Source: an uncultured Pelagibacteraceae bacterium
Lineage (GTDB): Bacteria > Pseudomonadota > Alphaproteobacteria > Pelagibacterales > Pelagibacteraceae
Direction of reading: 5' to 3'
NCBI GenBank assembly: GCA_902570125.1
Contig: CACFXK010000005.1
Span: 1 to 64,000 of the forward strand
DNA length: 64,000 nt
Every line of letters starts with the position of its first letter. The first letter of the stretch is position 1. Under the pieces are notes generated by a model. It was given only the letters and a program-made list of their open reading frames with translations, did no database searches and had not been told where the DNA came from. A program made the position numbers and the translations under genes. This document shows, one piece after another, positions 11,672-39,982 of this stretch.

Positions 11672-11707
11672 TTATAATTTTTTAAAATTGTATACTTTAT
11701 CTACGAT

Positions 11708-12898: not shown

Positions 12899-12910
12899 TA
12901 GTAAATTCTC

Positions 12911-16224: not shown

Positions 16225-16225
16225 T

Positions 16226-17838: not shown

Positions 17839-17854
17839 TATTTTTAAATATACT

Positions 17855-18769: not shown

Positions 18770-18773
18770 AAAT

Positions 18774-19160
18774 TTATTCTTTACTATTTGTAAAGGCGCA
18801 AATTTTATTTCCATCTAAATCACGAAGATAAGAATAATAAACTCCTGAGCCTTCTGGTCTTTCACCACCAGATCCCTCACTAGTTCCACCAGCTTTTAAA
18901 CCTACCTCATGAAATTTATCTACATGAGATCTTGATGAAGTTAAAAATGTGATTTGTGTTCCATTTCCAAAGGTAGCATCTTTTTTATTGAAAGGTTTAG
19001 TGACGTAAAACTCAATATCTTTGGTACCTTTTGCTCCATATGCAGCATAATCATCTTCTATTGTCTCGTTTCTATCTAAACCAATTACTTCTAAAACTTT
19101 GTCGTAAAATGTAATAGCATCATTTAAATTATTAGTACCTACCATCACATAACCAATCAT
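18774..19160 (-). CDS. VOC-family (glyoxalase/dioxygenase superfamily) protein
   Basis: Short VOC pattern: VMVGTNNLNDAITFYDKVL ... YLRDLDGNKICAF. Confidence 0.8.
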   Translation of the reverse strand: MIGYVMVGTNNLNDAITFYDKVLEVIGLDRNETIEDDYAAYGAKGTKDIEFYVTKPFNKKDATFGNGTQITFLTSSRSHVDKFHEVGLKAGGTSEGSGGERPEGSGVYYSYLRDLDGNKICAFTNSKE

Positions 19161-23261: not shown

Positions 23262-23267
23262 AAATTT

Positions 23268-24437
23268 ATGTCATTTACTAAAGAAGAATACAAACAAAGA
23301 TTAAAAAAAGTTCAATCGATGATGCAGGATAAAGGTATCGAACTATTGATTTCTCACGATACTAATAACATGAATTATTTAACTGGTTATGACGCCTGGT
23401 CTTTTTATTATGCACAGTGTGCAATTGTTCATATTAACGCTGATGAACCTTTATGTTTTGTAAGAGCTCAAGATTCAGGAGGTGCGTATATAAAAACGTA
23501 TCTCAAAGATGAAAATATAATTGTGTATGATGAAAATTATATTCATGCATGGCCAAAACATCCTTACGATTATCTAGTACAAATTATTAAAGACAGAAAT
23601 TGGGATAAGCTTTCAATTGGAGTTGAGATGGATGCTCATTACTTCACTGCTTTTTGTTATGAAAAGATAAAACAAGGTTTACCTAATGCAAAAATAAAAG
23701 ATTCCGAAAGATTAGTAAATTGGGCAAGATTTGCAAAATCTGATGCAGAAATCAATTATATGAAAACTGCCGCACTAATTTCAGAAAAAGGAATGAGGAC
23801 TGCAATGGAGGTAATAAAACCAGGAGTAAGACAATGCGATGCAGTCGGAGAAATACAAAAAACTTTATTTTATGGGACACCCGAGTTTGGTGGAGAGTAT
23901 TCTAGTATCGCTACACTTTTACCAACAGGCAAAGGAACATCTGCTTCTCATTTAACAGCAACGCAGGACAAGTTTGTTGAAGGCGAAGCGACGATTATTG
24001 AGTTATCTGGAGTTTATAAAAGATATCATGCGCCGATGGCCAGAACAGTCTTACTTGGTAAATCGGATCAATTAAAAATAGACACGATGAACAAAACTAT
24101 CGAAGCTCTTCAAGCTGGAATTGATGCTACAAAACCTGGGAACACAGCAAATGATGTAGCTCAAGCTTTTTGGGGTATTTTAGATAAATATGGAATAGAG
24201 AAAAAGTCAAGAACTGGCTACTCAATTGGAATAGGTTACCCACCAGATTGGGGCGAGCATACTCTTAATATATATAAAGGAGAAATGACTGAACTAGTAC
24301 CGAATGCGTGTTTTCACATGATAGCTGTAATGCAATTTGGTGATTGGGGAGTTGAAGCATCTGAAGCTTTAAGAGTTACAGATAAAGGGTGTGAATTATT
24401 TTGTAATTTTTCAAAAGAGTTACATATTAAGAGCTAA
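23268..24437 (+). CDS. M24-family hydrolase, ectoine hydrolase (DoeA/EutD)-like
   Basis: Pita-bread fold motifs; SHDTNNMNYLTGYDAWSFYYAQ, GKGTSASHLTATQDKFVEGEATIIELSGVYKRYHAPMARTV. Adjacent to an EutA-like gene. Confidence 0.6.
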   Translation: MSFTKEEYKQRLKKVQSMMQDKGIELLISHDTNNMNYLTGYDAWSFYYAQCAIVHINADEPLCFVRAQDSGGAYIKTYLKDENIIVYDENYIHAWPKHPYDYLVQIIKDRNWDKLSIGVEMDAHYFTAFCYEKIKQGLPNAKIKDSERLVNWARFAKSDAEINYMKTAALISEKGMRTAMEVIKPGVRQCDAVGEIQKTLFYGTPEFGGEYSSIATLLPTGKGTSASHLTATQDKFVEGEATIIELSGVYKRYHAPMARTVLLGKSDQLKIDTMNKTIEALQAGIDATKPGNTANDVAQAFWGILDKYGIEKKSRTGYSIGIGYPPDWGEHTLNIYKGEMTELVPNACFHMIAVMQFGDWGVEASEALRVTDKGCELFCNFSKELHIKS

Positions 24438-24482
24438 TTAAGTGTTGCAAACAACTTAACTAAATGTTTTAAAAACTAACTT

Positions 24483-25568
24483 ATGTCAAAAAAAGAAGAT
24501 TTCGTAAAATTTGATAAAGTCGATAAAAGCTACGATGGAAAAGTATTAGTAGTTAAAGATTTGAATTTAGATATCGAAGAAGGTGAGTTTGTCACAATGC
24601 TCGGACCCTCTGGTTCAGGAAAAACTACATGTTTAATGATGCTTGCTGGTTTTGAAACACCGACTAATGGAGAAATTTATTTAGATAAAAATCCAATTTC
24701 AAATATTCCTCCACATAAAAGAGGTATTGGAATGGTTTTTCAAAATTATGCTCTGTTTCCTCATATGACAGTTTTTGAAAATTTAGCTTTTCCTTTAAGG
24801 GTAAGAAAAATTTCAAAAGAAGATATTGATAAAAAAGTTGATAAAGCTTTATCAATGGTTTCATTGTCAGAATTTGGAAATCGTATGCCAGGACAACTAT
24901 CTGGCGGTCAACAACAGAGAGTAGCAGTAGCAAGAGCATTGGTATTTGATCCATCTGTAGTTTTAATGGACGAACCTTTAGGTGCTTTAGATAAAAATTT
25001 AAGAGAGAGTATGCAGTACGAAATTAAACATATCCATGAGAGTATTGGTGTAACAGTTGTGTATGTTACTCACGATCAAGGTGAAGCATTAACAATGTCA
25101 AACAGAATAGCAGTATTCAATGATGGTAAAGTTCAGCAACTTTCAAGTCCAGATAAGTTATATGAAGAACCTGTAAATTCTTTCGTCGCAGAGTTTATTG
25201 GAGAGAATAATACTTTCGCTGGAGAAATTTCAGATATATCAAATGGATCCTGTAAAGTTAAACTAGACAAAGGTGAAATAATCGCAAATCCAATTTCAGT
25301 TAAATCTGTTGGTGAAAAAACTACAGTTTCAATTAGACCTGAAAGAGCATTGATTAATCCTAAAGATAAAATGGATAACAATCAAAAAGGTAAAATAGAA
25401 GAGGTTATATACCATGGTGACCACACAAGAGTGAGACTTAACTTGCTTGGAAATTCAGAATTTATCTTAAAAGTTCCAAACAGTTCTCAAAATTTAGATA
25501 TTAAACTTGGAAATGAGATTAATATTGGTTGGAATAGTCATGACGCTAGAGCTTTAGACCCAAAATAA
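24483..25568 (+). CDS. potA: spermidine/putrescine-type ABC transporter ATP-binding protein
   Basis: GPSGSGKTT, LSGGQQQRVAVARAL, VLMDEPLGALD, TOBE-like C terminus. Confidence 0.85.
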   Translation: MSKKEDFVKFDKVDKSYDGKVLVVKDLNLDIEEGEFVTMLGPSGSGKTTCLMMLAGFETPTNGEIYLDKNPISNIPPHKRGIGMVFQNYALFPHMTVFENLAFPLRVRKISKEDIDKKVDKALSMVSLSEFGNRMPGQLSGGQQQRVAVARALVFDPSVVLMDEPLGALDKNLRESMQYEIKHIHESIGVTVVYVTHDQGEALTMSNRIAVFNDGKVQQLSSPDKLYEEPVNSFVAEFIGENNTFAGEISDISNGSCKVKLDKGEIIANPISVKSVGEKTTVSIRPERALINPKDKMDNNQKGKIEEVIYHGDHTRVRLNLLGNSEFILKVPNSSQNLDIKLGNEINIGWNSHDARALDPK

Positions 25569-25601
25569 GCCAAAAAGTTCAATAATAACCTAAATCCCCT
25601 G

Positions 25602-25630
25602 TTGACTCTCTATTCCTATGTTGCTGTACT
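25602..25630 (+). promoter_or_regulatory. possible sigma70-type promoter for potD (TTGACT-N17-TGTACT)
   Basis: -35-like TTGACT at 25602-25607, 17-nt spacer, weak -10-like TGTACT at 25625-25630. It sits in the 99-nt potA-potD gap. Confidence 0.3.
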
Positions 25631-25667
25631 TCGTTTTTTATAAAAAAAACGTTTAAACGGAGGATAA

Positions 25668-26789
25668 ATGAAAAAATTAAGTAAATTATTACTTGCCGTA
25701 ACTTTTGCTATTTCAGTATCTTCATCAGCTTTTGCAGTAGTTGTTGCATCATGGGGTGGAGCTTATACAGAAAGTCAAAAGCTAGGATATGGTGATCCGA
25801 CTGCAAAAGCATTGGGTATACCAATCGAATGGGTAGATTATTCTGGTGGATTATCAGAAATCAAAGCCCAAAAAGAAGCAGGAGCGATTACATGGGATAT
25901 TATAGATGTATTTGCATATGACACTATCAATGGTTGTGACGAAGGTATTTTTGTTGAATTTGATTTTGATAAAGACTTTCCACCAGCTCCAGATGGTACA
26001 CCTGCAAGTGAAGACTTCTTTACAGACATGCCTAGTAAATGTGCAGTAGGGAATATCTTATATTCTTGGAACTATGCTTACAACAGCGACCTGTTAAAAA
26101 GTACACCAAAAACTATTAAAGATTTCTTTAATACACAAAGATTTCCTGGAAAAAGAGCTATATACAAAAGTGCTCTTACAAACCTAGAAATTGCTTTAGC
26201 AGCTGACGGTGTAAAAATGGGTAAAGGTGGAGAATTCATATATGAAAGACTTGAGGACCCAGCATACGTAACAAGAGCAATGAACAAAATCAAAGCACTA
26301 TGTGAAGATCCAAAAGGCGGATGTGTATTTTGGTCAGCAGGTGCTCAACCACCAGAACTATTAATGAGTGGTGAAGTTGTAATGGCAACTGGTTGGAATG
26401 GTAGATTTTTCAATGCAGCAGTAGGAGAAGGTGCTCCAATAGTTCAAGTTTGGGACGGACAAGGTCTTGACTACGAATATTTTGCATTAGTTAAAGGTGG
26501 ACCAAACCAAGCTGACGCTATGAAAGCTTTAGCTATGATGACAAATACTGAAATGTTAGCAGGAAGTGCAAAATATATTGCATATGCTCCATGGAGAAAA
26601 TCATCAATAGCAGTTATGGAAGCAGGAGAGCCTTGGTATAAAGATGGAAAAACGAACATGGTTCCACATATGCCAACAGCACCAGCTAACCTTAAAAAAT
26701 ACTTCTTAGTGAACGCAGAGTACTGGGCTGATAATGGTACAGAGCTTGGTGAACAATGGGAAGCTATGAAAGCTAGTATTAATAATTAA
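25668..26789 (+). CDS. potD: spermidine/putrescine-type ABC transporter substrate-binding protein
   Basis: Signal peptide, VVASWGGAYTESQKLG, WNYAYNSDLL..PKTIKDFFNTQRFPGKRAIYK, good RBS (GGAGG). Confidence 0.85.
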   Translation: MKKLSKLLLAVTFAISVSSSAFAVVVASWGGAYTESQKLGYGDPTAKALGIPIEWVDYSGGLSEIKAQKEAGAITWDIIDVFAYDTINGCDEGIFVEFDFDKDFPPAPDGTPASEDFFTDMPSKCAVGNILYSWNYAYNSDLLKSTPKTIKDFFNTQRFPGKRAIYKSALTNLEIALAADGVKMGKGGEFIYERLEDPAYVTRAMNKIKALCEDPKGGCVFWSAGAQPPELLMSGEVVMATGWNGRFFNAAVGEGAPIVQVWDGQGLDYEYFALVKGGPNQADAMKALAMMTNTEMLAGSAKYIAYAPWRKSSIAVMEAGEPWYKDGKTNMVPHMPTAPANLKKYFLVNAEYWADNGTELGEQWEAMKASINN

Positions 26790-26820
26790 AGTTTTAAACA
26801 CTTTAATTTTATATTATATT

Positions 26821-26850
26821 AAGGGCGGTTATTTTAACCGCCCTTTTTTT
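26821..26850 (+). terminator. rho-independent terminator between potD and potB
   Basis: AAGGGCGGTTA-TTT-TAACCGCCCTT followed by T tract (7 T at 26844-26850). The potB ATG is at 26851. Confidence 0.9.
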
Positions 26851-28104
26851 ATGAGCTCAGAAATACAAAAAATACTATCAACCGATGGAATTCCTTTAGA
26901 GGAAAGTCTTAAAAAAGCAGAAAAAAAAAATAAAATAAAAGCATTTCTTTTAGTTACCCCACTTCTCTTATTTCTTATTATAACTTACATAATTCCAATT
27001 GCGGATATGTTTTCGAGAAGTATTGACGACAAGATGGTTACTAACATGTTGCCTAAAACATATAAAGCTATGGAGCAGTGGGATGGAAAAGAACTTCCAC
27101 CAGAAGAAGTATTCGAGGCTTTTTATCTGGATTACAAGATTTTAGTAGAAAATAAGACTGCTGGAAAATTACAAACGCAGCTAAATTATGAAAAAAATGG
27201 CTTTAAAAGTGTTTTGAAAAAATTAGCAAGAAAGCAAAAGAAATTTGAAGATGGAAATTATAAAGAGCAAATAATGAAAGTACATAAAAGATGGAGAAAT
27301 GTTGAATATTGGAGGGCAATTAAAAGAAGAGCTCCAGCTTACACTTACTCTAAATATTTAAAGGGTGTTGATATGTATTCAAACGAGGATGGCAAAATAG
27401 TTCAGGTAGCTGAAGATAGAAGAATTCATAGAATTTTATGGTCAAGAACTTTAGAAGTTGCATTTTTTGTAACTCTTTTTTGTTTTTTAATGGCCTATCC
27501 AATTGCACATTTATTAGCAACGCTTCCCATGAAGTATAGCAATTTGCTAATGATTTGTGTGCTGTTGCCTTTTTGGACCTCATTACTTGTACGAACAGCC
27601 AGTTGGATGATTTTGTTACAGCAACAAGGAATTGTTAATGACTTTTTTGTTTGGATTGGTCTTGTGACCGACGATAACAGACCTGAGATGATGTATAACA
27701 AGACAGGGACTTATGTTGCAATGACACAAATACTTTTACCGTTTATGGTATTACCTTTGTACAGTGTTATGAAAACAATTTCTCCAAGTCTTATGAGAGC
27801 AGGTAAGTCTTTAGGAGCTACTCCAGCAGTAGCTTTTTTTAAAGTTTATTTCCCGCTAACAATCCCAGGTATTGGGGCAGGTTGCTTATTAGTATTTATT
27901 CTTGCAATTGGATATTACATTACTCCAGCTTTAGTTGGTGGAGCTTCTGGAACACTTATCAGTAACCAAATAGCTTATCACATGAAGAGTACTTTAGATT
28001 GGAGTTTTGCATCTGCAATGGGTTTAATGCTTTTGACAGGAGTACTTGTTATCTATTGGATTTATAACAAACTTGTAGGAGTTGATAATATTAAACTAGG
28101 ATAA
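26851..28104 (+). CDS. potB: polyamine-type ABC transporter permease, with a long soluble/periplasmic insert after TM1
   Basis: FLLVTPLLLFLIITYIIPIADMFSRS, C-terminal permease domain with GKSLGATPAVAFFKVYFPLTIPG EAA-like loop. Confidence 0.85.
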   Translation: MSSEIQKILSTDGIPLEESLKKAEKKNKIKAFLLVTPLLLFLIITYIIPIADMFSRSIDDKMVTNMLPKTYKAMEQWDGKELPPEEVFEAFYLDYKILVENKTAGKLQTQLNYEKNGFKSVLKKLARKQKKFEDGNYKEQIMKVHKRWRNVEYWRAIKRRAPAYTYSKYLKGVDMYSNEDGKIVQVAEDRRIHRILWSRTLEVAFFVTLFCFLMAYPIAHLLATLPMKYSNLLMICVLLPFWTSLLVRTASWMILLQQQGIVNDFFVWIGLVTDDNRPEMMYNKTGTYVAMTQILLPFMVLPLYSVMKTISPSLMRAGKSLGATPAVAFFKVYFPLTIPGIGAGCLLVFILAIGYYITPALVGGASGTLISNQIAYHMKSTLDWSFASAMGLMLLTGVLVIYWIYNKLVGVDNIKLG

Positions 28105-28106
28105 TT

Positions 28107-28961
28107 ATGGCTTTACCAAAATATACAGAACCTCATTATAGAATTTGGCATTATTTTTATCTTTTTGTTTGTGGATGTGTTTTCTTTTTTTTAATTGCAC
28201 CTTTATTTGTAATTTTTCCATTATCATTTAATGCAGAGGAATTTTTAGTCTTTACAGATGGAATGAAGAGACTTGATCCAGATGCTTTTTCTACAAGATG
28301 GTACAAAGATATGGTCTACGGAACAAAAAATCCATGGGGATTAGCTGCAAAGAATAGTTTTATCATTGCTATATTTGCAACGATAGGATCAATTATACTT
28401 GGAACATTAGCTGCTCTTGGTTTAAGTAGTAGACATATGCCATACAAAGGTCTGATTATGGCAACTTTAATATCTCCAATGATTGTTCCTCTAATTATTT
28501 CTGGAGTTGCAATTTTCTTTTTCATGGCAAAAGTAGGTTTAGCTGCAACACATTTAGGGATAATTTTAGCGCATATTATTTTAGGAACTCCATTTGTAGT
28601 AATAACAGTAACAGCGACGCTTTCTGGATTTGATCATAGTATTACCAGAGCAGCTTCTAGCTTAGGTAGCAATCCATTTAATACTTTTATGAAAATAACT
28701 TTACCGTTAATACTTCCTGGCGTTATTTCTGGAGGATTGTTTGCTTTTGTTACATCATTTGATGAGGTTGTAGTCGTGTTATTCTTAGCAGGTTTAGATA
28801 ATACTACAATTCCAATTCAAATGTGGACAGGTCTTAGAGAGCAGCTTAGTCCTACAATCTTAGCTGTAGCAACTTGCTTAATAGTTTTATCAGTATTAAT
28901 TTTAGTCACAGCAGAGCTTTTAAGAAGAAGATCTGAGAGATTAAGAGGAATAAATAGATAA
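28107..28961 (+). CDS. potC: polyamine-type ABC transporter permease
   Basis: Permease with EAA-like loop RAASSLGSNPFNTFMKITLPLILPGVISG. Confidence 0.85.
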   Translation: MALPKYTEPHYRIWHYFYLFVCGCVFFFLIAPLFVIFPLSFNAEEFLVFTDGMKRLDPDAFSTRWYKDMVYGTKNPWGLAAKNSFIIAIFATIGSIILGTLAALGLSSRHMPYKGLIMATLISPMIVPLIISGVAIFFFMAKVGLAATHLGIILAHIILGTPFVVITVTATLSGFDHSITRAASSLGSNPFNTFMKITLPLILPGVISGGLFAFVTSFDEVVVVLFLAGLDNTTIPIQMWTGLREQLSPTILAVATCLIVLSVLILVTAELLRRRSERLRGINR

Positions 28962-28962
28962 A

Positions 28963-30087
28963 TTAGTTTACAGATTCAATCACTGTAGCAATTCCCATAC
29001 CCAAACCAATACACTGAGTTGAAAGTGCATATTTTTTATTTTCTCTCTTAAGTAATTCAGCAGCTTTGCCTGTAATTCTTGCGCCTGTTGCTCCAAGAGG
29101 ATGTCCAAGGGCAAGCGCTCCACCATCTAAATTAACTTTATCTTTATCTATACCTAAATCTTTAATACACGCTAAGGATTGCGACGCGAAAGCCTCATTC
29201 AATTCAACAATATCAATTTTATCTGCTGACAAATTAGCCCTTTCCAAAGCTTTTTTTGATGCTCCAATTGGACCTAATCCCATATAGTCAGGGTCACAAC
29301 CTTGTACTGCTGTAGATACAATTCTTCCCAAAATATTTAAATTGTTTTCTTTTGCATAACTTTCTTCACAAATTAATGTTGCAGCTGCACCATCGGTTAA
29401 AGGTGATGAAGTGGCTGCTGTAACAGTACCATTTTCATCGAATGCGAGTTTTAATCCATCCAACTTTTCCATTGTGCTGCCTGGTCTAATATTTCCATCG
29501 GTATCACAATCTCCGATTGATACAATTTCATTTTTAAAATTACCTTTTGTTTGTGCTTCATGCGCTTTTTGATGACTTGAGATTGCAAATTCCTGCTGTT
29601 CATGTCTTGAGATATTATATTTTTTAGCAACATTTTCAGCAGTAGTTCCCATTGAAAAATAAACGTGAGGATTATCATTTTTATTTTCAGGATAAGGTAT
29701 TGGATCAAAACCTGTATTAACTCTAGTCATACTTTCAACACCTCCACATATAAATACTTTCCCTGCTCCTAACGAAATTTTACCTGCAGCAATATGAATA
29801 GCTTCCATTGAGGAACCACACCATCTATCAACTGTCATTCCAGAAGTTTTAACATCCATATTAGTTAAAAATGTTGTTAACTTTCCAATATTAAATGACT
29901 GCTCTCCAGTTTGAAATGCACAACCAACAACAATATCCTCAATATCCTCTTTTTTAACATTGGATTTAGCAACTAAATTTTTAATCACTTCCGCTAGTAA
30001 ATTTACCGGCTTTGTATCTACGAGCGCACCTTTTCTCGCCATTGTGAAAGGTGATCTTGAGAAGCCAGCAATTACAGGTTTAAGCAT
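28963..30087 (-). CDS. thiolase (acetyl-CoA C-acyltransferase)
   Basis: VDRWCGSSMEAIH (acylated Cys), NEAFASQSL, GGALALGHPLGATGAR, STQCIGLGMG. Confidence 0.9.
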   Translation of the reverse strand: MLKPVIAGFSRSPFTMARKGALVDTKPVNLLAEVIKNLVAKSNVKKEDIEDIVVGCAFQTGEQSFNIGKLTTFLTNMDVKTSGMTVDRWCGSSMEAIHIAAGKISLGAGKVFICGGVESMTRVNTGFDPIPYPENKNDNPHVYFSMGTTAENVAKKYNISRHEQQEFAISSHQKAHEAQTKGNFKNEIVSIGDCDTDGNIRPGSTMEKLDGLKLAFDENGTVTAATSSPLTDGAAATLICEESYAKENNLNILGRIVSTAVQGCDPDYMGLGPIGASKKALERANLSADKIDIVELNEAFASQSLACIKDLGIDKDKVNLDGGALALGHPLGATGARITGKAAELLKRENKKYALSTQCIGLGMGIATVIESVN

Positions 30088-30103
30088 ATTAATAAATATA
30101 AGG

Positions 30104-31270
30104 TTAATCTGGAAATGGTAAAGAAGTTATAATGCCTTTTCTATTTTTTCCATTGAAAGTATTCACAAAAACCTCATTACCAATTTCCCAATAATCTTTT
30201 AAAATCATAGATAGGCCAATATTCTTTCTAAATCCTGGAGAATATATTCCTGATGCAATTTGCCCAATTTTTGCATTATCTTTTGAGTATACTGGTAAAG
30301 GTACACCGGTTGGCTTACACGGATCTCCATCAAACAAAATTCCTCTCATTCTTTGTACAATTCCATCAGATTGGATCTTTCTTAAAGCCTCTTTACCTAT
30401 AAAATCATGATCATCCTCTTGTTTGCAGTATTTTTCAAGATTACACTCAAGAGGATTATTTTCTCTTGTAAAGTCATTTCCATAAGACATTAACCCAGCC
30501 TCAATTCTATCAATTAAATTTGGGCATCCTGGTGAAATTTTAAATTTTTGTCCGCTTTCCCATATAGTATCCCAAAGTTTTTCTCCGAGTTCTATCTCAT
30601 TAAAATGTGTTTCAAATCCTTTAAAATATATTTCAAAACCATCTTGTTTACTGTAACCAGATCTTGCAATAATTTGTTTGGTTCCTAAAAAATCAAACAC
30701 TTTAAAATTAAAAAATTTCAACTTTTTTATATCCTCACCAAAAATTGAAATTAGTAGATCCTCAGATTTCGGACCTTGAATAGCTAATGGATATACATCT
30801 GGTTCGATAATTTCTACGTTTAATTTTGATCCTAAAGCAATTCCTTTTGCCCAAAGTAAAATATCAGAATCTGCAATAGAAATCCAAAACATATCATCGT
30901 CTAGTTTTAATAAAACTGGATCATTAATCATCCCAGCTGTGTCGTCAATTATTGGAATATAAAAACATTTACCGGTCTCCATTTTTTTTATGGATCGGGG
31001 TGTCATTTTTTGAACCAATTTTTCAGCATCAGGCCCTGTAATTTGTACTTGTCTCTGGCAAGACACATCCCACACTTGAACCTGCTCTCTTAAATGCCAG
31101 TAGTCTTCTTCTACAGTATTTTTAAAACCTTTTGGTAGTAGCATGTGATTAACAACAGTAAAATCAGATACTCCACATTCCTCTACTTTATTTGTAAATG
31201 GAGTTCGTCTTATACGCCTAGACATATTTAATTTTATATTTTTTTGTGTAATTAAATTTTCTTTACTCAT
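30104..31270 (-). CDS. GcvT-family methyltransferase, DMSP demethylase (DmdA)-like
   Basis: SRRIRRTPFTNKVEECGVSDFTVVNHMLLP, VQVWDVSCQRQVQITG, GMINDPVLLKL, SPGCPNLIDRIEAGLMSYGNDF. Resembles DmdA more than canonical GcvT, whose motif is around IDDL. Confidence 0.65.
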   Translation of the reverse strand: MSKENLITQKNIKLNMSRRIRRTPFTNKVEECGVSDFTVVNHMLLPKGFKNTVEEDYWHLREQVQVWDVSCQRQVQITGPDAEKLVQKMTPRSIKKMETGKCFYIPIIDDTAGMINDPVLLKLDDDMFWISIADSDILLWAKGIALGSKLNVEIIEPDVYPLAIQGPKSEDLLISIFGEDIKKLKFFNFKVFDFLGTKQIIARSGYSKQDGFEIYFKGFETHFNEIELGEKLWDTIWESGQKFKISPGCPNLIDRIEAGLMSYGNDFTRENNPLECNLEKYCKQEDDHDFIGKEALRKIQSDGIVQRMRGILFDGDPCKPTGVPLPVYSKDNAKIGQIASGIYSPGFRKNIGLSMILKDYWEIGNEVFVNTFNGKNRKGIITSLPFPD

Positions 31271-31271
31271 T

Positions 31272-31607
31272 TTATTTTGACCACCACACTGTGTAGCTAT
31301 TTTTAGAAATTATTATTGGAATATGATATTTTTTATTTTGATCTTCCATTTGAAATTTAATGTTAATTTCTGAAACTATTTTTTTTTCTGAAAAATAATT
31401 GCCAGTTTTACAAACCATTTCATACTCACACTTACAGTCATCTTTACTTAATTCAAATTCATGGATTATTCGTCCACCTTCATCAGATTTAGTCTCACAG
31501 AAAACTTTCTTTTTTCCATTTTCATTAATTTGATAAATAATTACTTCAACATTTGCAGCGTGCGAGCCATTTGTTGCATCCAATAAGTGAGAAGAGAAAG
31601 TTGCCAC
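31272..31607 (-). CDS. transthyretin-like / 5-hydroxyisourate hydrolase-like protein with altered C-terminal signature
   Basis: FSSHLLDATNGSHAANVEV (His), GGRIIHEF (Arg), KKYHIPIIIS (His). C terminus is YTVWWSK instead of YRGS. Confidence 0.7.
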   Translation of the reverse strand: MATFSSHLLDATNGSHAANVEVIIYQINENGKKKVFCETKSDEGGRIIHEFELSKDDCKCEYEMVCKTGNYFSEKKIVSEINIKFQMEDQNKKYHIPIIISKNSYTVWWSK

Positions 31608-31609
31608 AA

Positions 31610-33352
31610 TTATTCTATTGAGGATTTCTCTCTTTTACTTGCAACTGCAGAGACTATTGGGCTTAACACAGGTTTTGCTTTAACATTTACACATGCGGGT
31701 TTCCCACTTTTCATTGCTCTTTTAAGTGCAGGACCAAGTTCTTCTCTTTTATTAACTAATTCTCCATGTCCTCCAAAACCCTCAAATATCTTGTGAAATG
31801 GTATATCACGAAAATCAGTTCCCACACTTTTTCCACTTTTAAATAACCTCTCTTGTTGCTGACCAATTGAGGCAAGACCTCCGTTATTATCAATTACAAC
31901 AGTAATAGGTTTTTTTTCATAAAATACACTTTCGATAGACATACCTCCTGATAAAAACGCACCATCACCACTAATCAAAACTACATTTGAATCTGGATTA
32001 TGATTTTTAGCAGATAGAGCGAATGAAACTCCAACACCTAACATGCTAAAAGTTCCAGGATGCAATATACCTTTTAATTTTTTCCCTTTGGCACCTGCGA
32101 TGTTGATTGCAATTTCTGACCAAAAATGAGTATTGCCTCCATCTATAACAAGCCAATCATTTTCATTCATTGCATCTTGAACATCCAATGAAAGTTGTAG
32201 AGGGTGAATTTTTCCTCCATTTTTTTTAGATGCTTCAGCTTCAATTTCTAAATCTTTCAAAGATTTATCTACCCACTCTTTCTTCTTTTTTTTATTTTCC
32301 TCAAACCAATTTGTATCTAAAAACCATTTATTATTTTTTTTTAGGTTGGATAATGTATCTAAAAAAACACCAGGATCGCTTAGTAAACTTAAATCTGCAG
32401 CTCTATTAAGTTCTAATTCTTCATGTGAACCATTTACACAAACTAATTTTGTTGATTCTGGTATAAATGGTGGATTTCCAAAATTTAATTGATTATCTAA
32501 TCTAGCTCCAACGACAAGAACCAGATCTGAATTTTGTAATGCAAATTCTGAGGGAGGGTATTGATGTATATCAGCCAACCCCATGTAAGCGTTAGCTTCC
32601 TCTCCTAATAATTTTTGATGATAAGGAACATTAAAAATTGGTATTTTTAAATTATTACCAGCTGCTTCAAGATTTTTTTCTGAATGTGACCACCAAACAC
32701 CGTGTCCGCCAATGATGACTGGTTTTTTTGAATTACAAGCAAGTTCTAAGACTTTAGAGAGTGAATTTGGATCTGGCCACGCTTTAGCTATAGGTTTTGC
32801 TTTTTGAGAATACGGTCTTTCTTCTAAGCCAACTTCCTCAGCAAAAGATGAAAACATAATATCAACTGGAAGACTAAGATGTACAGCACCTGGATATCCG
32901 TTAGTTGCAATATGATATGCTTTGTCTACAAATTCTCTTATTCTAGTTCCATCTGTAATACTTGCACTATATTTGGTTAAGGGGGCTGCAATTGAAACAT
33001 CGTCAATTTCTTTAAAACCACCTGAACCTTGTCTTTTAAGACTGCTAGATCCTGTGATGTAAATAATGGGACTTCTTTCACCCCAAGCTTCCATCATTGA
33101 AGGTACAGCATTAGTAAATCCTTCAGGTCCAACTAAACAGACTGACGGTTTACGAGTAATTCTTGTATTGCCGTCTGCTAAATGTCCAGCAATCTGTTCA
33201 TGAGGAGTGTTTATGACTTCAATTTGGCATTCAGCAAAACCTTCAATTGCTGGATTACAAAACCCCCCCGAAAGAGTGAAAACTTTCCTAATTCCTTTGT
33301 CTTTTAGAGCCCTTGCTAGTAATGCTCCACCTCTAATTTTATTTTCACTCAT
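31610..33352 (-). CDS. thiamine-pyrophosphate-dependent enzyme, acetolactate-synthase/2-hydroxyacyl-CoA lyase-like
   Basis: NTPHEQIAGHLADG (catalytic Glu), GDGAFLSGGMSIESVFYEKKPITVVIDNNG TPP motif. Confidence 0.8.
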   Translation of the reverse strand: MSENKIRGGALLARALKDKGIRKVFTLSGGFCNPAIEGFAECQIEVINTPHEQIAGHLADGNTRITRKPSVCLVGPEGFTNAVPSMMEAWGERSPIIYITGSSSLKRQGSGGFKEIDDVSIAAPLTKYSASITDGTRIREFVDKAYHIATNGYPGAVHLSLPVDIMFSSFAEEVGLEERPYSQKAKPIAKAWPDPNSLSKVLELACNSKKPVIIGGHGVWWSHSEKNLEAAGNNLKIPIFNVPYHQKLLGEEANAYMGLADIHQYPPSEFALQNSDLVLVVGARLDNQLNFGNPPFIPESTKLVCVNGSHEELELNRAADLSLLSDPGVFLDTLSNLKKNNKWFLDTNWFEENKKKKKEWVDKSLKDLEIEAEASKKNGGKIHPLQLSLDVQDAMNENDWLVIDGGNTHFWSEIAINIAGAKGKKLKGILHPGTFSMLGVGVSFALSAKNHNPDSNVVLISGDGAFLSGGMSIESVFYEKKPITVVIDNNGGLASIGQQQERLFKSGKSVGTDFRDIPFHKIFEGFGGHGELVNKREELGPALKRAMKSGKPACVNVKAKPVLSPIVSAVASKREKSSIE

Positions 33353-34516
33353 TTAGTAATCTACCTTATTTATAGTATTATCTATTACTATATTAGAAGT
33401 TACATCATTAATATCATTTAATCCTACTAACCCGAGTGTAGTGCTAGCTTCTTCTTTAATTATTTCCACAATTCTCCTTAATCCTTTTCTTCCATCAGCG
33501 CCCATCGCATACATTACAGGCCTACCAATCATTGCATAATCGGCACCAAATGCAAGCGCTCTCACGATATCACTTCCACTCCTTATTCCGCTATCGAAGA
33601 TTAAAGGAAAATCACTTCCTACTGATTTTCTGATTATTGGAAGCATATTTATTGCTGCTGTAGCACTATCTAATTGTCTGCCTCCATGATTTGAGACTTG
33701 AATTGCATCAGCACCAGCTTCCTTTATTTGTGTTGCATCGTCAGGAGACATTACTCCTTTGATTATCAATTTACCTTTCCATTTATCTCTTACTCTCTTT
33801 AAAGTATCCCAATCTGTAGAACCTCTACTTTCTTTTCTTTTAAAAATACCGTCTCCACTTTTAGATGTTACATAGTTCATTGGTTTGGGAATGCCACTGA
33901 GTAAAGTAGAAAGAGACCAAGTAGGGTGAGTTGCAAAATCAAAAAATTGTTTTGGACCTATTTTAAAAGGATAAGAGAAACCATTTTTATCATCTCTAGT
34001 TCGTCTGGATAGTACTGGAACATCTACGGTTAATATTGCAACTTCGTATCCAGTATTCTTAGCTCTATCCAAAAGTTCCATAACAAAATTTTCATCCTGA
34101 AATATATATAGCTGCATCCAGGAGTGACCTTCTGAAAGTTCATACATTTTTTCTAAAGTTGTAGTAGAAGCCATAGAAACACAAGTAGGTATATTATTCC
34201 TCGCACTTTCAGCAGCTAACATAGAGTCTGCTCCAGGCCATGATAAATTAGTCATTCCCATTGGAGCAAACCCAAATGGAAAATCAAATTCATAACCTAA
34301 TACTTTTTTCTTAAGAGATCTTTTCTCAACATTTCTTAAAACTTTAGGTTCAAGTCTAATCTGATCTAATGCTTTGCTATTTATTTCTGCTAATTTTTCG
34401 TCTCCAGATGCTCCATCAATAAAATCAAAAACTAATTTAGGTAGACGTTTTCTTGACAATTCTCTTGCATCTTTAATACTAAAAATTTTTTGACTTGGTA
34501 AAATATTATCACTCAT
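33353..34516 (-). CDS. FMN-dependent alpha-hydroxy-acid oxidase/dehydrogenase (LldD/glycolate oxidase family)
   Basis: FDFIDGASGDE, FGFAPMGMTNLSWPGADSMLA, QLYIFQD, KGVMSPDDA, VSNHGGRQLDSA, DSGIRSGSDIVRALAFGADYAMIGRP. Confidence 0.9.
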   Translation of the reverse strand: MSDNILPSQKIFSIKDARELSRKRLPKLVFDFIDGASGDEKLAEINSKALDQIRLEPKVLRNVEKRSLKKKVLGYEFDFPFGFAPMGMTNLSWPGADSMLAAESARNNIPTCVSMASTTTLEKMYELSEGHSWMQLYIFQDENFVMELLDRAKNTGYEVAILTVDVPVLSRRTRDDKNGFSYPFKIGPKQFFDFATHPTWSLSTLLSGIPKPMNYVTSKSGDGIFKRKESRGSTDWDTLKRVRDKWKGKLIIKGVMSPDDATQIKEAGADAIQVSNHGGRQLDSATAAINMLPIIRKSVGSDFPLIFDSGIRSGSDIVRALAFGADYAMIGRPVMYAMGADGRKGLRRIVEIIKEEASTTLGLVGLNDINDVTSNIVIDNTINKVDY

Positions 34517-35201
34517 TATTAATTTTAATATATTCTTTTAAATTAAGTTGTTTATTTTGATCAACAAAATAAGCATTATGACTTTCTCTTGAAGAATAAA
34601 CCTCAGTTGGTTTTCCGTCAATAAAAAGTACCGCAACTCCATCATCAACAGCTATACCATTTGGTAAATTTTTGTTTTTTATACTTTGTCTATATTTATC
34701 TGCTCTTTTTGCATCTGAATAATGGGGAGTAAAGCTTCCAGATATAAGTCCAACACCGTTTAATGTTTTAAAACCAGGCCCATCTGAATCTGTAAGAAAA
34801 TAATCAAACCAACATGCAGCCCCAGCACTTACACCAGAAAGAATTATTCCTGAGTTATAAACTTCTTTAAAAATTCCAAATAAATTATTTCTTTTCCATA
34901 AGTCGAGCATAAATTTAGTATTACCTCCACCAACATAAATAGCATCTAAATTTGAAATCCAGTTTTCAAAACCCTTAACATTTGAGACAAGATTGAAATG
35001 AGAAACTTTAAAATTAGTATTTTTAAATCTTTCATAGAATAGCTCAGTTTTTTTTACGTCATCATTACTAGCAGTTGGTAAAAACCCTATAGAGCATTTT
35101 TTTTTACTTATTTGATCTAAAAAAAATTGATCTAAATCGCTATCTTCATCATGAGTGAAACCCCCACCTCCAACTGCTATTATTTGATTTTTACCCTTCA
35201 C
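34509..35201 (-). CDS. peptidase S51 / class I glutamine-amidotransferase-like protein
   Basis: AVGGGGFTHDED, IYVGGGNTKFML, LSGVSAGAACWFD (nucleophile Ser). Confidence 0.8.
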   Translation of the reverse strand: MKGKNQIIAVGGGGFTHDEDSDLDQFFLDQISKKKCSIGFLPTASNDDVKKTELFYERFKNTNFKVSHFNLVSNVKGFENWISNLDAIYVGGGNTKFMLDLWKRNNLFGIFKEVYNSGIILSGVSAGAACWFDYFLTDSDGPGFKTLNGVGLISGSFTPHYSDAKRADKYRQSIKNKNLPNGIAVDDGVAVLFIDGKPTEVYSSRESHNAYFVDQNKQLNLKEYIKINNE

Positions 35202-35214
35202 TAAATAAATTTTT

Positions 35215-36444
35215 TTAATTTGTGGTTTTAATACCAGGCCAAGGATTAGGTGCTTTAGGAATATTTCTATTTAGACCTCTAACAATTTCTCCTTTTGCAT
35301 CATACATTGGCAGTTTACAAATTTCTCCTTTATGTACTTTTCCATCAGTGCATTTAACATCAACAACATCTCCTGGTCCATTTTCATTATTATCGAGGTG
35401 CACAATACCAACTCCACAAATTTGATATGGCGACCAAGTACTAGAAGTTATTTTACCAATATTTTTTTCATTTATTTTAATACTTTCACCTTTAATAGCA
35501 GTTCCCTCTGCAACTCTAATCCCCCATGTTTTACATTTTTTATCTGATGTCATGAGAGCTTCTTTTCCAATAAAATCTTCTTTATCAAAATTAATAAAAC
35601 GCCCAAGACCGACCGAAAATGGATTTGTTTTTTTTGTAAAATCTTGTCCTGCAGATAGTAGACCTGCCTCAATTCTTCTACATCTAAAACCTGGAGTGGC
35701 AACTAAAATCATACCTAATTTTTCTCCTTCTTCAAGAATGTAGTCTCCTATTTTTTCAGTTTCATTTTCAGGTCGAAAATAAATTTCCCAACCTAACTCA
35801 TTTGTAAAACCACTTCGGCTTACAATTACTTTTTGATCTAAGATTTGTAATTCTTTCCAATCAAAATATTTCCAGTCATTTTCAGAAAATCCATCTGCTA
35901 TATTTTCTAAAAGTTTCATTGATAAAGGACCCTGTATTTGACTTACCCATACCTCAGGGTCTTTTATTTCAACATCCATATTTTTTGAGTGAGCTTTATA
36001 CCAAGAAAAAAGATCCCCATCTGCTTGAGCAAACCAATATTTATCTTCTTCAATTTTTAATAGAACTCCATCAGTAATCATTCCTCCATCGTGATAGCAA
36101 GCGAACTGGTACGAGCATCTACCTTTCGATATTTTTGATACATCTCTTGGAAATATATTTTGTAATAGCTTTAATGAATCCGGACCAGATATTTCAAATG
36201 GATGTTCGCCAGTATGTCTAAATATTATTTCTTGCCGTCCTTTCCAATACATTTCTTCAGGACTTACATTAGATAATTTCTCAAGTGTTAATCTTCCAGC
36301 ATAATTAGAATACTCAGGATCATATGGTAGCTCTTGGTAGGTTAATGGATGAACCTGAATTGATCTTGCAAGCTCCAAAGAGTTAGAATTTTCAAGGTTT
36401 ACAGGCTTTACTGTAAACCTATATTTATTGATTAAATCTTTCAT
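35215..36444 (-). CDS. GcvT/aminomethyltransferase-family protein, diverged second copy
   Basis: HPFEISGPDSLKLLQNIFPRDVSKISKGRCSYQFACYHDGGMITDGVLLKI, SRSGFTNELGWEIYF, RRIEAGLLSAGQDF, FIGKEAL. Confidence 0.8.
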   Translation of the reverse strand: MKDLINKYRFTVKPVNLENSNSLELARSIQVHPLTYQELPYDPEYSNYAGRLTLEKLSNVSPEEMYWKGRQEIIFRHTGEHPFEISGPDSLKLLQNIFPRDVSKISKGRCSYQFACYHDGGMITDGVLLKIEEDKYWFAQADGDLFSWYKAHSKNMDVEIKDPEVWVSQIQGPLSMKLLENIADGFSENDWKYFDWKELQILDQKVIVSRSGFTNELGWEIYFRPENETEKIGDYILEEGEKLGMILVATPGFRCRRIEAGLLSAGQDFTKKTNPFSVGLGRFINFDKEDFIGKEALMTSDKKCKTWGIRVAEGTAIKGESIKINEKNIGKITSSTWSPYQICGVGIVHLDNNENGPGDVVDVKCTDGKVHKGEICKLPMYDAKGEIVRGLNRNIPKAPNPWPGIKTTN

Positions 36445-36559
36445 TACTTCTTTTTAAATAATCAAAATACATCAATAAAACAAATAAAAAAGAACCATTT
36501 TCACTGTTGCTATATAAGTTGCTAATTGTTACCTTTTATTTTTTTAAAGAGAGGAAATT

Positions 36560-38047
36560 ATGAAAAACATTTTTAAATTGATATCAGTTTCATTGGTATC
36601 ACTATTTGTAACGTTTTCTTTAGCTAATGCATCAAGTGGAGTTTTTAAATTATCTCATGATGTTGGTTTTGGAAAAGATACAAATTTAGACGCAATTACT
36701 AAAGGACGACTGTTTCAGGTAGTAATAATGACACAGAACCGTCTTGTTAGAAAAGATCTTAAAGGGGTTACATCTCCTGAGCTAGCAACAGACTGGTCAG
36801 GAAATGCTGATGCAACAGAATGGACTTTTAATTTAAGAAAAGGTGTTAAATTCCATGATGGATCTGAGTTTGATGCAGAGGATGTAAAATACTCTTTGAT
36901 GAGAGTTAAAGATCCTGAAATTGGTTCACCTGCTAAGAAAAGTATGAGTGCAGTAACAGATATTGAAGTTGTAGACTCACACACAGTTAAAATGAAGTTG
37001 AATACATCTTTTGCAGATTTTCCACTTTTATTAACTGACTATAGATTAAGAATGATACCTAGCGGATCAGGAGATACTATTGGAAAAACAGGTATTGGAA
37101 CTGGACCCTTTATAGTAGAAAAGTTTGATGCTGAAGGAACAACAATTCTTAAAGCAAACCCAGATTATTGGGAAGGAGCACCTAAACTTGCTGAAGTACA
37201 TGTAATAGCTATCCCAGATGGTCAAGCTAGAATTCAAGCTCTACTAACAGGTCAAATTGATATGAATAGATATGTTCCATTCAATCAGAAAAAAATATTT
37301 GATAATAATTCAAAGTTTAACGTTTCAGTTATACCTACAGGAAACTGGAGAGGTATGGTGATGAGAACAGACGTTGCACCATTTGATGACGTGAGAGTAA
37401 GAAAGGCTGTCAGAATAGCTGTAGATAGACAAGAATTAGTTGATCTTGTTATGGCTGGAGCAGCAACAGTGTCATGTGATACTCCAGTTGCACCTTCAGA
37501 TCAATATAGAATGAATAAGAAATGTCCACCTCAACCAGCAACTGCAAAAAAATTACTTGCTGAAGCAGGTTATCCAGATGGGATTGATATGACAATTCAC
37601 GTTTCTACAAAAGAACCAACGTGGCCAACTATTGCTGAGGTTTTACAACAACAATTTGCAAAAGCTAACATTAGAGCAGACATTCAAATGACACCTTCAA
37701 AAAGTTATTGGAATGAAACTTGGATGAAAAAGGCTGTAGCAATGACGCGTTGGAATGAGAGACCTGCGGACAGTATTTTGCATGAAGCTTACCATAGTGA
37801 AGCAAAATGGAACGAGTCTTTCTATAAAAGTGCTTCTTTTGACAAAAATTTAGCTGAAGCTAGAGGAGAGTTAAAATTTAGCAAACGAAAAGCAGCATAC
37901 ATCAATGCTCAGAAAACTCTATGGGAAGAGTCTGGAACAATGATTCCTTACCACGTATCTAGACTGGTTGTCACATCTTCTAAAGTGAAAAACCTCGACG
38001 AAGTTGAGTATTTTTCAATTAGATGGCACACAGTTAGCGTTCAATAA
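36560..38047 (+). CDS. ABC transporter substrate-binding protein, family 5 (dipeptide/oligopeptide type)
   Basis: Signal peptide; ATDWSGNADATEWTFNLRKGVKFHDGSEFDAEDVKYSL; RKAVRIAVDRQELVDLV. Confidence 0.9.
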   Translation: MKNIFKLISVSLVSLFVTFSLANASSGVFKLSHDVGFGKDTNLDAITKGRLFQVVIMTQNRLVRKDLKGVTSPELATDWSGNADATEWTFNLRKGVKFHDGSEFDAEDVKYSLMRVKDPEIGSPAKKSMSAVTDIEVVDSHTVKMKLNTSFADFPLLLTDYRLRMIPSGSGDTIGKTGIGTGPFIVEKFDAEGTTILKANPDYWEGAPKLAEVHVIAIPDGQARIQALLTGQIDMNRYVPFNQKKIFDNNSKFNVSVIPTGNWRGMVMRTDVAPFDDVRVRKAVRIAVDRQELVDLVMAGAATVSCDTPVAPSDQYRMNKKCPPQPATAKKLLAEAGYPDGIDMTIHVSTKEPTWPTIAEVLQQQFAKANIRADIQMTPSKSYWNETWMKKAVAMTRWNERPADSILHEAYHSEAKWNESFYKSASFDKNLAEARGELKFSKRKAAYINAQKTLWEESGTMIPYHVSRLVVTSSKVKNLDEVEYFSIRWHTVSVQ

Positions 38048-38055
38048 TAATTTTG

Positions 38056-38085
38056 TTTTACAGGCCTTTAAGTAGGCCTGTAAAA
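38056..38085 (+). terminator. intercistronic hairpin between the SBP and permease genes (terminator or mRNA 3'-end stabiliser)
   Basis: TTTTACAGGCCT-TTAAGT-AGGCCTGTAAAA, perfect 12-bp stem with a weak U-rich tail (CCTCTTTCATTT). Confidence 0.7.
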
Positions 38086-38129
38086 CCTCTTTCATTTCTA
38101 AATAAATAATTTAAAATTTAAGTATTCTT

Positions 38130-39086
38130 ATGCTTTTTTTAATTATAAAAAGAATACTATTAGGTTTAATAACTTTATTTATTGTATCTTTAATCACTTT
38201 TGTTGGAACAGAAATTTTACCTGGTGATGCTTGTACAACGTATCTTGAAAGACAAGCATTTGGAGAGCAATTAGAAGCTTGTTATAGAAGATTAGGCTTG
38301 AATGTTCCTGCATATGAGAGATATGTATCCTGGGCAGTAAATGCTATTCAAGGAGACTTCGGTTATTCATTGAGTGGAGAAATGCCAATCAAAGAGGTTC
38401 TAGGGCCACGTATAAAAAATTCATTAGTTCTAGCCTCAGCTGCTATTTTTATTGGTATACCAATTGCTTTAATACTTGGAATTGTAACTGCTCTTTGGAG
38501 GGATAAATTGCCTGACGTTGCAATTTCAACAGTAACTATATTTGCTATGACTATTCCAGAGTTTATCAGCGCTACTTTATTAATCTTAATAATCGCAATA
38601 TGGCTAGAGTGGTTACCAGGAATTGTAATTGTTCCAACTGATGTTTCATTCTTAGAACTATTACCCAATATAATTTTACCAGTCATAGCAATTGCAATGA
38701 TTATGACCGCTCACATGGCACGGATGGTGAGATCAAGCGTCATCCAAGTTATGGCAAGTGAATATGTACAAATGGCAATATTAAAAGGTGTTCCATATTG
38801 GAAAATGGTTTTTAAACATGTTTTACCAAATGCATTGTTGCCAGCTATTAACGTTGTAGCTTTAACAATTGCATGGTTGTTAGGTGGTGTTGTTGTAACT
38901 GAAGTTGTATTTAATTACCCAGGTCTTGGAAGATTGGTTATTGAGTCGATTTCAAATAGAGATTTACCTACAGTTCAAGCATTAGCAATAATTCTTGCAT
39001 CTATATATGTTAGTATAAATCTTTTAGCAGATCTAATGACTTTGATGCTCAATCCAAGATTAAAAACTTTACAGATTAGAAAATAA
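38130..39086 (+). CDS. dipeptide-type ABC transporter permease (DppB-like)
   Basis: IKRILLGLITLFIVSLITFVGTEILPGDAC, permease loop SEYVQMAILKGVPYWKMVFKHVLPNAL. Confidence 0.9.
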   Translation: MLFLIIKRILLGLITLFIVSLITFVGTEILPGDACTTYLERQAFGEQLEACYRRLGLNVPAYERYVSWAVNAIQGDFGYSLSGEMPIKEVLGPRIKNSLVLASAAIFIGIPIALILGIVTALWRDKLPDVAISTVTIFAMTIPEFISATLLILIIAIWLEWLPGIVIVPTDVSFLELLPNIILPVIAIAMIMTAHMARMVRSSVIQVMASEYVQMAILKGVPYWKMVFKHVLPNALLPAINVVALTIAWLLGGVVVTEVVFNYPGLGRLVIESISNRDLPTVQALAIILASIYVSINLLADLMTLMLNPRLKTLQIRK

Positions 39087-39087
39087 T

Positions 39088-39981
39088 ATGAAATTAGATA
39101 ATATTTATCAGGAAGAAAAGAAAAGTAATTTCGCAAAGGTCTCGGAGATAATAATTACAATGGCCTCACGACCGTCAGGATTTATTGGGTTAAGTATATT
39201 GATTTTCCACGTAATTCTTGCATTTATTAGTCCTTATATTGCGCCATATGATTTTAAAGCAATAAACCCCACTTTAATGTTACAGGCTCCTTCGGCTGAG
39301 TATTGGTTTGGAACTGATGATCTTGGAAGAGATGTTTTTACCAGAACAATTTTAGGTGGAAGAACAGCTTTAACAATTACTTTCTTTGGATCTTTAATAG
39401 CACTACTTTGGGGTGGTCTATTAGGAATTTTTTGTGGACTGGTTGGTGGAAAAACTGACGATATAGTGATGAGAATTGTTGATGCATTTTTATCTATACC
39501 GTGGATATTAGCAATGTTGTTAATTGTATCTTTGTTGGGTACATCAACTGAAGTATTGATACCTGCTTTAGGTTTTTTTTATGGTAAAGGAATTGTAAGA
39601 GTAGCAAGAGCTGCAACCCATGATGTTATTGCAAAAGACTTTATTGTGTCCGCTAGAGCAAGAGGTCATAGTAATTTTTCAATAATATGGAATGAGATAA
39701 TTCCAAATGTAAGAGATGCAATTTTAGTGGAAGGTGCAATGAGATGGTCATGGATGCTACTTGGCTTTAGTTCTTTGTCATTTCTAGGTTTTGGTGTTAG
39801 TCCTCCAACTCCAGATTGGGGATTGATGATATCAAATGCGAGAGGCTTAATGTCTTTTGCTTATTGGTCAGTTATAGCTCCAATTGTTGGTTTAAGCAGC
39901 TTAATAATTGGCATCAATTTGACAGCTGATGCTTTTGCTAAAGCATTAGGTATAGATAGATCAACAAAAGCGCCTGTTTAA
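39088..39981 (+). CDS. dipeptide-type ABC transporter permease (DppC-like)
   Basis: YWFGTDDLGRDVFTRTILGGRTAL, SARARGHSNFSIIWNEIIPN. Confidence 0.9.
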   Translation: MKLDNIYQEEKKSNFAKVSEIIITMASRPSGFIGLSILIFHVILAFISPYIAPYDFKAINPTLMLQAPSAEYWFGTDDLGRDVFTRTILGGRTALTITFFGSLIALLWGGLLGIFCGLVGGKTDDIVMRIVDAFLSIPWILAMLLIVSLLGTSTEVLIPALGFFYGKGIVRVARAATHDVIAKDFIVSARARGHSNFSIIWNEIIPNVRDAILVEGAMRWSWMLLGFSSLSFLGFGVSPPTPDWGLMISNARGLMSFAYWSVIAPIVGLSSLIIGINLTADAFAKALGIDRSTKAPV

Positions 39982-39982
39982 A

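Follow-up and report, generated by a model that had tools for sequence, protein, structure and literature searches.

In the 64,000-nucleotide (nt) stretch of DNA analysed here (positions 1 to 64,000 of contig CACFXK010000005.1, contig 5 of assembly GCA_902570125.1; hereafter the window), which comes from an uncultured Pelagibacteraceae bacterium of the SAR11 group (genome G000, 86% complete), seven genes, named g1 to g7, form an operon at positions 28963-36444. A check of the open reading frames (ORFs) confirmed all seven on the minus strand, at the coordinates and with the range of junctions that an earlier reading, made from the letters alone (the sequence-only reading), had given them, and its gene identities were supported by the Pfam and NCBIfam families (from g1 to g7: thiolase, GCV_T, HIUase/transthyretin, TPP enzyme, FMN_dh, Peptidase_S51 and GCV_T). 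Gene g1 (28963-30087) encodes a thiolase of the acetyl-CoA C-acyltransferase family (TIGR01930, 419 bits, cut-off 240), and g2 (30104-31270) a divergent, 'type II' tetrahydrofolate (THF) demethylase of the DmdA type, similar to dmdA subclades C/2 and B/3 (NF009133, 528.5 bits, cut-off 410). They are followed by g3 (31272-31607; PF00576, 72 bits), for a protein of 111 amino acids resembling transthyretin (TTR) and 5-hydroxyisourate hydrolase (HIUase), and by g4 (31610-33352; domains TPP_N, TPP_M and TPP_C), for a thiamine pyrophosphate (TPP)-dependent enzyme of a rare, separate subfamily. The remaining genes specify a flavin mononucleotide (FMN)-dependent 2-hydroxyacid dehydrogenase similar to mandelate dehydrogenase, LldD and SlcD (g5, 33353-34516; FMN_dh, 397 bits), an S51 serine hydrolase of the aspartyl dipeptidase/cyanophycinase superfamily (g6, 34509-35201; PF03575, 130.8 bits against 23.9) and a GcvT-like THF enzyme with a clade of its own (g7, 35215-36444; GCV_T, 138 bits). 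The genes are tightly packed, with a 13-nt gap between g7 and g6 (35201/35215), an 8-nt overlap of g6 and g5 (34509/34516), 0 nt between g5 and g4 (33352/33353), 2 nt between g4 and g3 (31607/31610), 1 nt between g3 and g2 (31270/31272) and a 16-nt gap between g2 and g1 (30087/30104). Upstream lies a divergent intergenic region of 115 nt (36445-36559), the presumed site of both promoters, although scans for promoters and terminators gave no signal above shuffled sequences. Beyond it, a complete Dpp-type ABC importer (SBP_bac_5, DppB, DppC and DppDF; 36560-42010, plus strand) begins with the divergent gene for a substrate-binding protein, which spans 36560-38047 and had also been noted earlier; this importer is syntenic beside the operon in SAR11 and in SAR116.

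When the g3 protein was used as a search query, close copies turned up in nine further Pelagibacteraceae genomes (L026-L034); the remaining matches were true HIUases at 26-31% identity. Inspection of the flanks showed the seven-gene order and the divergent importer in all nine, except where contigs ended, which cuts the order short in one genome, and for an additional ORF in L029. The recurrence of this order in nine genomes argues that the clustering is more than chance; the sequence-only reading, which had proposed a co-directional operon and named beforehand a lack of conserved synteny as grounds for giving it up, therefore held when the relatives were checked. The operon was also present in further SAR11 single cells and, as counted from the g3 search, in about 8 of the 53 near-complete genomes of the family. 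For all seven genes the ratio of nonsynonymous to synonymous substitution rates (Nei-Gojobori, against three relatives) was 0.03-0.35, and we therefore conclude that all of them are kept by purifying selection.

Both g2 and g7 had been read as 'GcvT/DmdA-type'; membership of the GcvT family stood for the pair, whereas only g2 is at the level of DmdA (528 against 410 bits), g7 passing no curated NCBIfam model. The T protein of glycine cleavage was rejected for the two, as they reached 141.5 and 114.7 bits against 235.85 for the gcvT equivalog and the operon holds no gcvH or gcvP. The 1.27-Mb window genome has 12 GcvT-domain matches in all, about half of them in long frames resembling dehydrogenase fusions. 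Like g2, its operon orthologs exceed the cut-off of the NCBI DmdA equivalog model (514-633 bits, with up to 633 bits in SAR116), and g2 aligns end to end with the DmdA of P. ubique (PDB 3TFH, 386 bits). Elsewhere, the window genome encodes a separate, ordinary DmdA (571 bits), whose neighbours are dmdB- and dmdC-like genes. Where the DmdA model was run on operon-bearing SAR11 genomes, each of them had both kinds, as did the alphaproteobacterial genomes G306 and AG-892 and one gammaproteobacterial genome. In a tree of the GcvT family the operon copies formed one group (support 97/92), sister to the DmdAs of clades A and D; in a larger tree that included SAR116, two non-operon SAR116 sequences (L164 and L171) fell within or next to this group.

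The two kinds of DmdA differ at fixed positions. At position 32 of 3TFH, valine was present in 56/56 operon copies (Val40 of g2, codon 31151-31153, minus strand) and tyrosine in 18/18 other DmdAs, and at position 63 all 56 operon copies had glutamine (Gln72 of g2, codon 31055-31057, minus strand) where 17 of the 18 others had glutamate. Further consistent differences of the operon type were A39K, I297F and C325I. The THF-contact residues S122, E204 and Y206 were invariant in both kinds; this 3TFH numbering was mapped by us from the alignment numbering of PMC7487153, which names them 99S, 178E and 180Y. The clearest test came from SAR116, where Y32/E63 marked the DmdAs that lack the TPP operon and adjoin a dmdB-type ligase, and V32/Q63 those of the operon; the ligases of SAR116 and of the gammaproteobacterial genome were recognised by their resemblance to the SAR11 ligase sequence, with no model search. 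Two copies at contig ends with partial context (L173, and L170 next to a TPP fragment) carried V32/Q63, while L164 and L171, which have other neighbours, carried Y32 with Q or E at position 63. The type of DmdA thus tracks genomic context, V32/Q63 going with the operon and Y32/E63 with a neighbouring dmdB-type ligase. Taken together, the operon enzyme shares with the DmdA/dmdABC system of SAR11 (clade D) and roseobacters (clade A) the GcvT fold, the DmdA cut-off, the three THF residues and marine alphaproteobacterial hosts; it differs from that system in Y32V and E63Q, in having no dmdB or dmdC beside it in the operons examined, in its setting with a 2-hydroxyacid dehydrogenase and a TPP enzyme, and in coexisting with an ordinary DmdA in SAR11. 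A tryptophan described as key for the interaction with dimethylsulfoniopropionate (DMSP) (PMC7487153), which we mapped to the position of Trp197 in P. ubique DmdA, was dropped as a discriminating residue; tyrosine stands there in roseobacter proteins that carry the DmdA annotation (L130, L131 and L132) and lie beside dmdB/dmdD or acuI-like genes.

These data connect the operon to ocean surveys of dmdA, in which subclades C/2 and D/1 have been called the most prevalent (PMC10076866, PMC13360808). With the C/2 primers for quantitative PCR as printed in PMC10076866, both primers had 0 mismatches to the operon dmdA in L030, L032, L033, L034, L059-L061 and L063-L065, and the product predicted in these SAR11 copies, about 192 bp, compares with the 191 bp of the table in that paper. 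By its C/2 primer sites in sister SAR11 genomes, the operon dmdA is thus the same gene type as the one that surveys score as DMSP demethylation potential. Because g2 of the window has 7 and 4 mismatches to the two primers, it is best described as related to C/2, being neither a demonstrated member nor a perfect target. Ordinary SAR11 dmdAs had 4-9 mismatches to the C/2 primers, and the D/1 primers fitted one of them (L105) with 0 and 1 mismatches. A putative B/3 primer pair had no close match to any copy and was not used as evidence. A closed genome of 2,753,527 bp (G357), which is probably that of strain IMCC1322, has a single DmdA above the cut-off, namely the operon one. Subclade B/3 of SAR116, with IMCC1322 as its named representative (PMC6309047), appears to be of the same type as the operon DmdA. 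In the literature searched we found no paper giving the operon context of C/2-B/3 dmdA.

Beyond SAR11, the core order FMN-TPP-TTR-DmdA recurred in SAR116, in the uncultured alphaproteobacterial lineage of AG-892 and G306, and in one gammaproteobacterium. The g4 subfamily had relatives at 60-79% identity in these same groups, in a metagenome-assembled genome of Granulosicoccaceae and in Gemmobacter megaterium; besides the window genome it was present in 3 of 337 Alphaproteobacteria, plasmids gave nothing closer than 29.5% identity, and a scan of 299 Pseudomonadota added no further close relative. Within the SAR116 family 22 of 61 genomes had the TPP gene, and in 19/19 of those with this gene and an above-cut-off DmdA on one contig the two were 387-549 bp apart, room that is filled by the TTR gene. 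Other parts of the operon vary. The S51 gene and the importer were retained at two SAR116 loci (L085 and L090), the S51 gene was missing from the AG-892 and gammaproteobacterial loci, and g7 was present in SAR11 and in the AG-892/G306 lineage. The thiolase g1, with which the sequence-only reading had ended its pathway, proved lineage-specific, occurring in complete SAR11 operon copies and being absent from the SAR116, other alphaproteobacterial and gammaproteobacterial versions. In Granulosicoccaceae the FMN gene is divergent to the TPP-TTR pair, with genes for a homocysteine S-methyltransferase, a C-N hydrolase and a GGT-like protein nearby, and in Gemmobacter the pair adjoins a TctC/TctA-type transporter. 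A homocysteine S-methyltransferase gene also stands beside the module in L069 and L086, and a gene of the MTTB family (similar to corrinoid methyltransferases for trimethylamine or betaine) lies inside the SAR116 operon of L090 (L090:5743-7368), between S51 and LysR. Separately, an uncultured alphaproteobacterium (L069:12042-14445) and Loktanella (L133:7971-12118) both have a DmdA-like gene followed by OsmC and a PRK08139-type enoyl-CoA hydratase, the two hydratases being 51% identical. The AG-892 crotonase was dropped as a close homolog of DmdD, at 23% identity.

For g5, the best single-copy PDB chain was the (S)-mandelate dehydrogenase 6BFG (252 bits), ahead of 1HUV (217 bits), which we take to be a loop-replaced chimera. 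The protein may be a membrane-type, quinone-linked dehydrogenase, with a membrane-insertion loop like that of mandelate dehydrogenase and LldD, rather than the LldD-type oxidase proposed earlier. Its nearest relatives on plasmids were alpha-hydroxyacid oxidase genes (49% identity) beside comDE, in clusters that also hold histidinol-dehydrogenase-like and TRAP genes and look like catabolism of 2,3-dihydroxypropane-1-sulfonate (DHPS) or sulfolactate. As in that roseobacter route (SlcD with ComDE), the operon pairs an FMN 2-hydroxyacid dehydrogenase with a TPP enzyme, there a 2-oxoacid decarboxylase; unlike it, the operon has a single-chain TPP enzyme resembling acetolactate synthase (ALS) and 2-hydroxyacyl-CoA lyase (HACL), and neither xsc nor HpsNOP. 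The mandelate pathway also has an FMN dehydrogenase, there the membrane-type (S)-mandelate dehydrogenase, followed by a TPP enzyme, benzoylformate decarboxylase, whereas the operon adds methyltransferases and the TTR-like and S51 proteins, and its hosts are marine oligotrophs. By analogy with the comDE clusters, g5 would turn a 2-hydroxy acid into the 2-oxo acid, from which g4 would form an aldehyde.

The TPP enzyme g4 scored below every NCBIfam cut-off (best PRK05858, 280 against 587 bits; HACL, 245 against 600), and we rejected the names HACL and acetolactate synthase for it, which leaves the 'HACL/ALS lyase' of the sequence-only reading unproven. The closest solved structure was 8VZC (199 bits), a relative of HACL and oxalyl-CoA decarboxylase (OXC). 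Besides the missed cut-offs, g4 differs from these enzymes in lying in an operon without a CoA ligase and in its FKEIDD motif (32999-33016, minus strand), kept in all 8 sequences aligned, which has a lysine where OXC and HACL relatives have a glutamine ('AFQE' in 8VZC). Because of this replacement, its substrate is probably different from theirs.

The HIUase-like protein g3 shares with 5-hydroxyisourate hydrolase (PucM/HpxT family) the fold and the His/Arg/His catalytic set (His7, Arg46 and His95), and it falls below the cut-off of TIGR02962 (72.8 against 87.45 bits). It differs at its C-terminus, where Trp-Trp-Ser-Lys (31275-31286, minus strand) replaces the Tyr-Arg-Gly-Ser (YRGS) of HIUases; the 8 operon-lineage sequences aligned have W-(W/L)-S there and true SAR11 HIUases YRGS. 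With the catalytic set kept and YRGS replaced by WWS, g3 is probably a hydrolase acting on another substrate. A purine or urate pathway was rejected, since g3 lacks YRGS and the true SAR11 HIUases, to which it is 26-28% identical, sit in separate clusters of other genomes. The S51 protein g6 exceeded its family model and contains the GVSAGA and PHY motifs; its PDB matches (7C9B and 7UQV) were weak. The second GcvT-family protein, g7, forms a clade with roseobacter and other alphaproteobacterial sequences (support 100/99), and its orthologs on roseobacter plasmids lie in a different cluster; g7 therefore does not define the module. Relatives of g7 adjoin or lie near genes for a BisC-family molybdopterin S/N-oxide reductase (L038:14992-29580 and L039, on Phaeobacter and Tritonibacter plasmids; L095:9358-12899), and the plasmid clusters also contain a CoA ligase, a crotonase and a TRAP transporter. 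The BisC-linked relatives possibly demethylate an oxidised methyl compound, such as dimethylsulfoxonium propionate (DMSOP) or an N-oxide.

Elsewhere in the window, genes for a PotABCD-type importer, an M24 peptidase/creatinase-like protein and an Asp/Glu-racemase-like protein (22521-28961) adjoin the thiolase end, as in most SAR11 copies. Genes for methylated compounds are grouped at 4579-19160, including butyrobetaine-hydroxylase-like and ProXWV-type importer genes, and two homocysteine S-methyltransferase-like genes lie at 15235-16224 and 17855-18814, all of these named by eye.

We propose, with confidence and doubt in about equal measure, that the operon serves the catabolism of a methylated 2-hydroxy acid, or of a conjugate yielding one, most likely a sulfonium related to DMSP; that the substrate is a methylated 2-hydroxy acid at all we likewise regard as an even question. 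Two THF enzymes imply the transfer of a methyl group from an activated donor, and the known methyl donors for standalone members of this THF family are sulfonium or aryl-methyl-ether compounds. In the proposed scheme, the Dpp importer would take up the compound, the S51 hydrolase may split an amide conjugate to release it, methyl groups would pass to THF through g2 (and g7), the FMN dehydrogenase would oxidise the 2-hydroxyl to a 2-oxo acid and pass the electrons to quinone, the TPP enzyme would decarboxylate or cleave this 2-oxo acid, and the HIUase-like protein would hydrolyse an intermediate. The lead candidate, which is nonetheless more likely than not to be wrong, is 4-dimethylsulfonio-2-hydroxybutyrate (DMSHB). 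It is the best fit in that it combines a sulfonium group with a 2-hydroxy acid and serves algae as the precursor of DMSP (PMC5395565, PMC11306096); demethylation would act either on DMSHB itself or, once this had been converted to DMSP, on the product. DsyD, a bacterial DMSHB decarboxylase domain, resembles ureidoglycolate lyase, and this parallel to a ureide-pathway fold beside sulfonium chemistry in the operon is suggestive at most. The literature searched contained no described pathway with this gene set, including any of DmdA with hydroxyisourate or TPP proteins, in agreement with the sequence-only reading, whose logic of THF-dependent demethylation, 2-hydroxyacid oxidation and a TPP step is supported and whose overall interpretation is partly so.

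Several points weigh against this proposal. The operon has no gene for an aldehyde dehydrogenase or a CoA ligase, Granulosicoccaceae and Gemmobacter have the TPP and TTR genes without an adjacent DmdA, and the DMSHB scheme does not explain what the HIUase-like and S51 proteins do. A quaternary amine would suit the MTTB gene of one SAR116 operon better, and Y32 and E63 need not touch DMSP. Moreover, the operon DmdA is the only one above the cut-off in most operon-bearing SAR116 genomes and is therefore compatible with true DMSP demethylation. The strongest of the alternatives, if clearly the less probable account, takes the annotation (clades B and C) at face value: the operon DmdA would truly demethylate DMSP, and its neighbours would supply or use metabolites of the DMSP pathway or be co-regulated. 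It agrees with the DmdA equivalog scores of up to 633 bits, the conserved THF residues, the position as sole DmdA above the cut-off in many SAR116, the roughly equal distance of roseobacter clade A and the operon type from clade D, and the practice of surveys, which count the C/2 and B/3 type as DMSP demethylase (PMC10076866, PMC13360808). It fits poorly with the two substitutions fixed at sites that dmdB-linked DmdAs conserve, the lack of dmdB, dmdC and dmdD in the operon, the redundancy that a second DmdA means for streamlined SAR11 genomes, and FMN, TPP and TTR proteins that have no known role in the DMSP pathway.

It seems unlikely that the operon breaks down a hydroxy acid or conjugate of the quaternary ammonium (betaine) kind, with the g2-type enzyme and g7 shifted to N- or O-methyl donors. 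The MTTB-family gene in the IMCC1322-like operon (L090), an MTTB-like ORF seen by eye near the gammaproteobacterial locus and the homocysteine S-methyltransferases adjacent in two lineages speak for it, but L085, the second SAR116 locus examined, lacks MTTB, and we know of no THF enzyme of this family that demethylates a quaternary amine without a dehydrogenase partner. Least probable is a peptide, amide or ureide route, in which methyl transfer would be secondary and the main chemistry, on a cyclic amide, would fall to the HIUase-like and S51 proteins. In its favour, SAR11 and SAR116 alike retain the Dpp importer together with S51, the Granulosicoccaceae cluster includes GGT-like and C-N hydrolase genes, and TPP with TTR is the smallest shared pair; against it, YRGS is replaced in every lineage aligned, urate genes are absent from the operon and S51 is missing from the AG-892 and gammaproteobacterial loci.

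A further reading concerns dmdA itself: subclades C/2 and B/3 would not be DMSP demethylases, and would instead supply the THF methyltransferase step in an undescribed catabolic pathway whose substrate is a different methylated compound. We consider this a real prospect that falls somewhat short of an even chance. The demethylation of DMSP is regarded as the dominant process in marine organic sulfur turnover, dmdA genes are used to quantify it, and SAR11 are among the commonest ocean bacteria. If C/2 and B/3 belong to another pathway, part of the ocean's inferred DMSP-demethylation potential would be misassigned, and survey estimates, as well as the assignment of DMSP demethylation to many SAR116, would need revision. 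A conserved SAR11/SAR116 pathway for a methylated acid would, in turn, point to a dissolved compound worth measuring.

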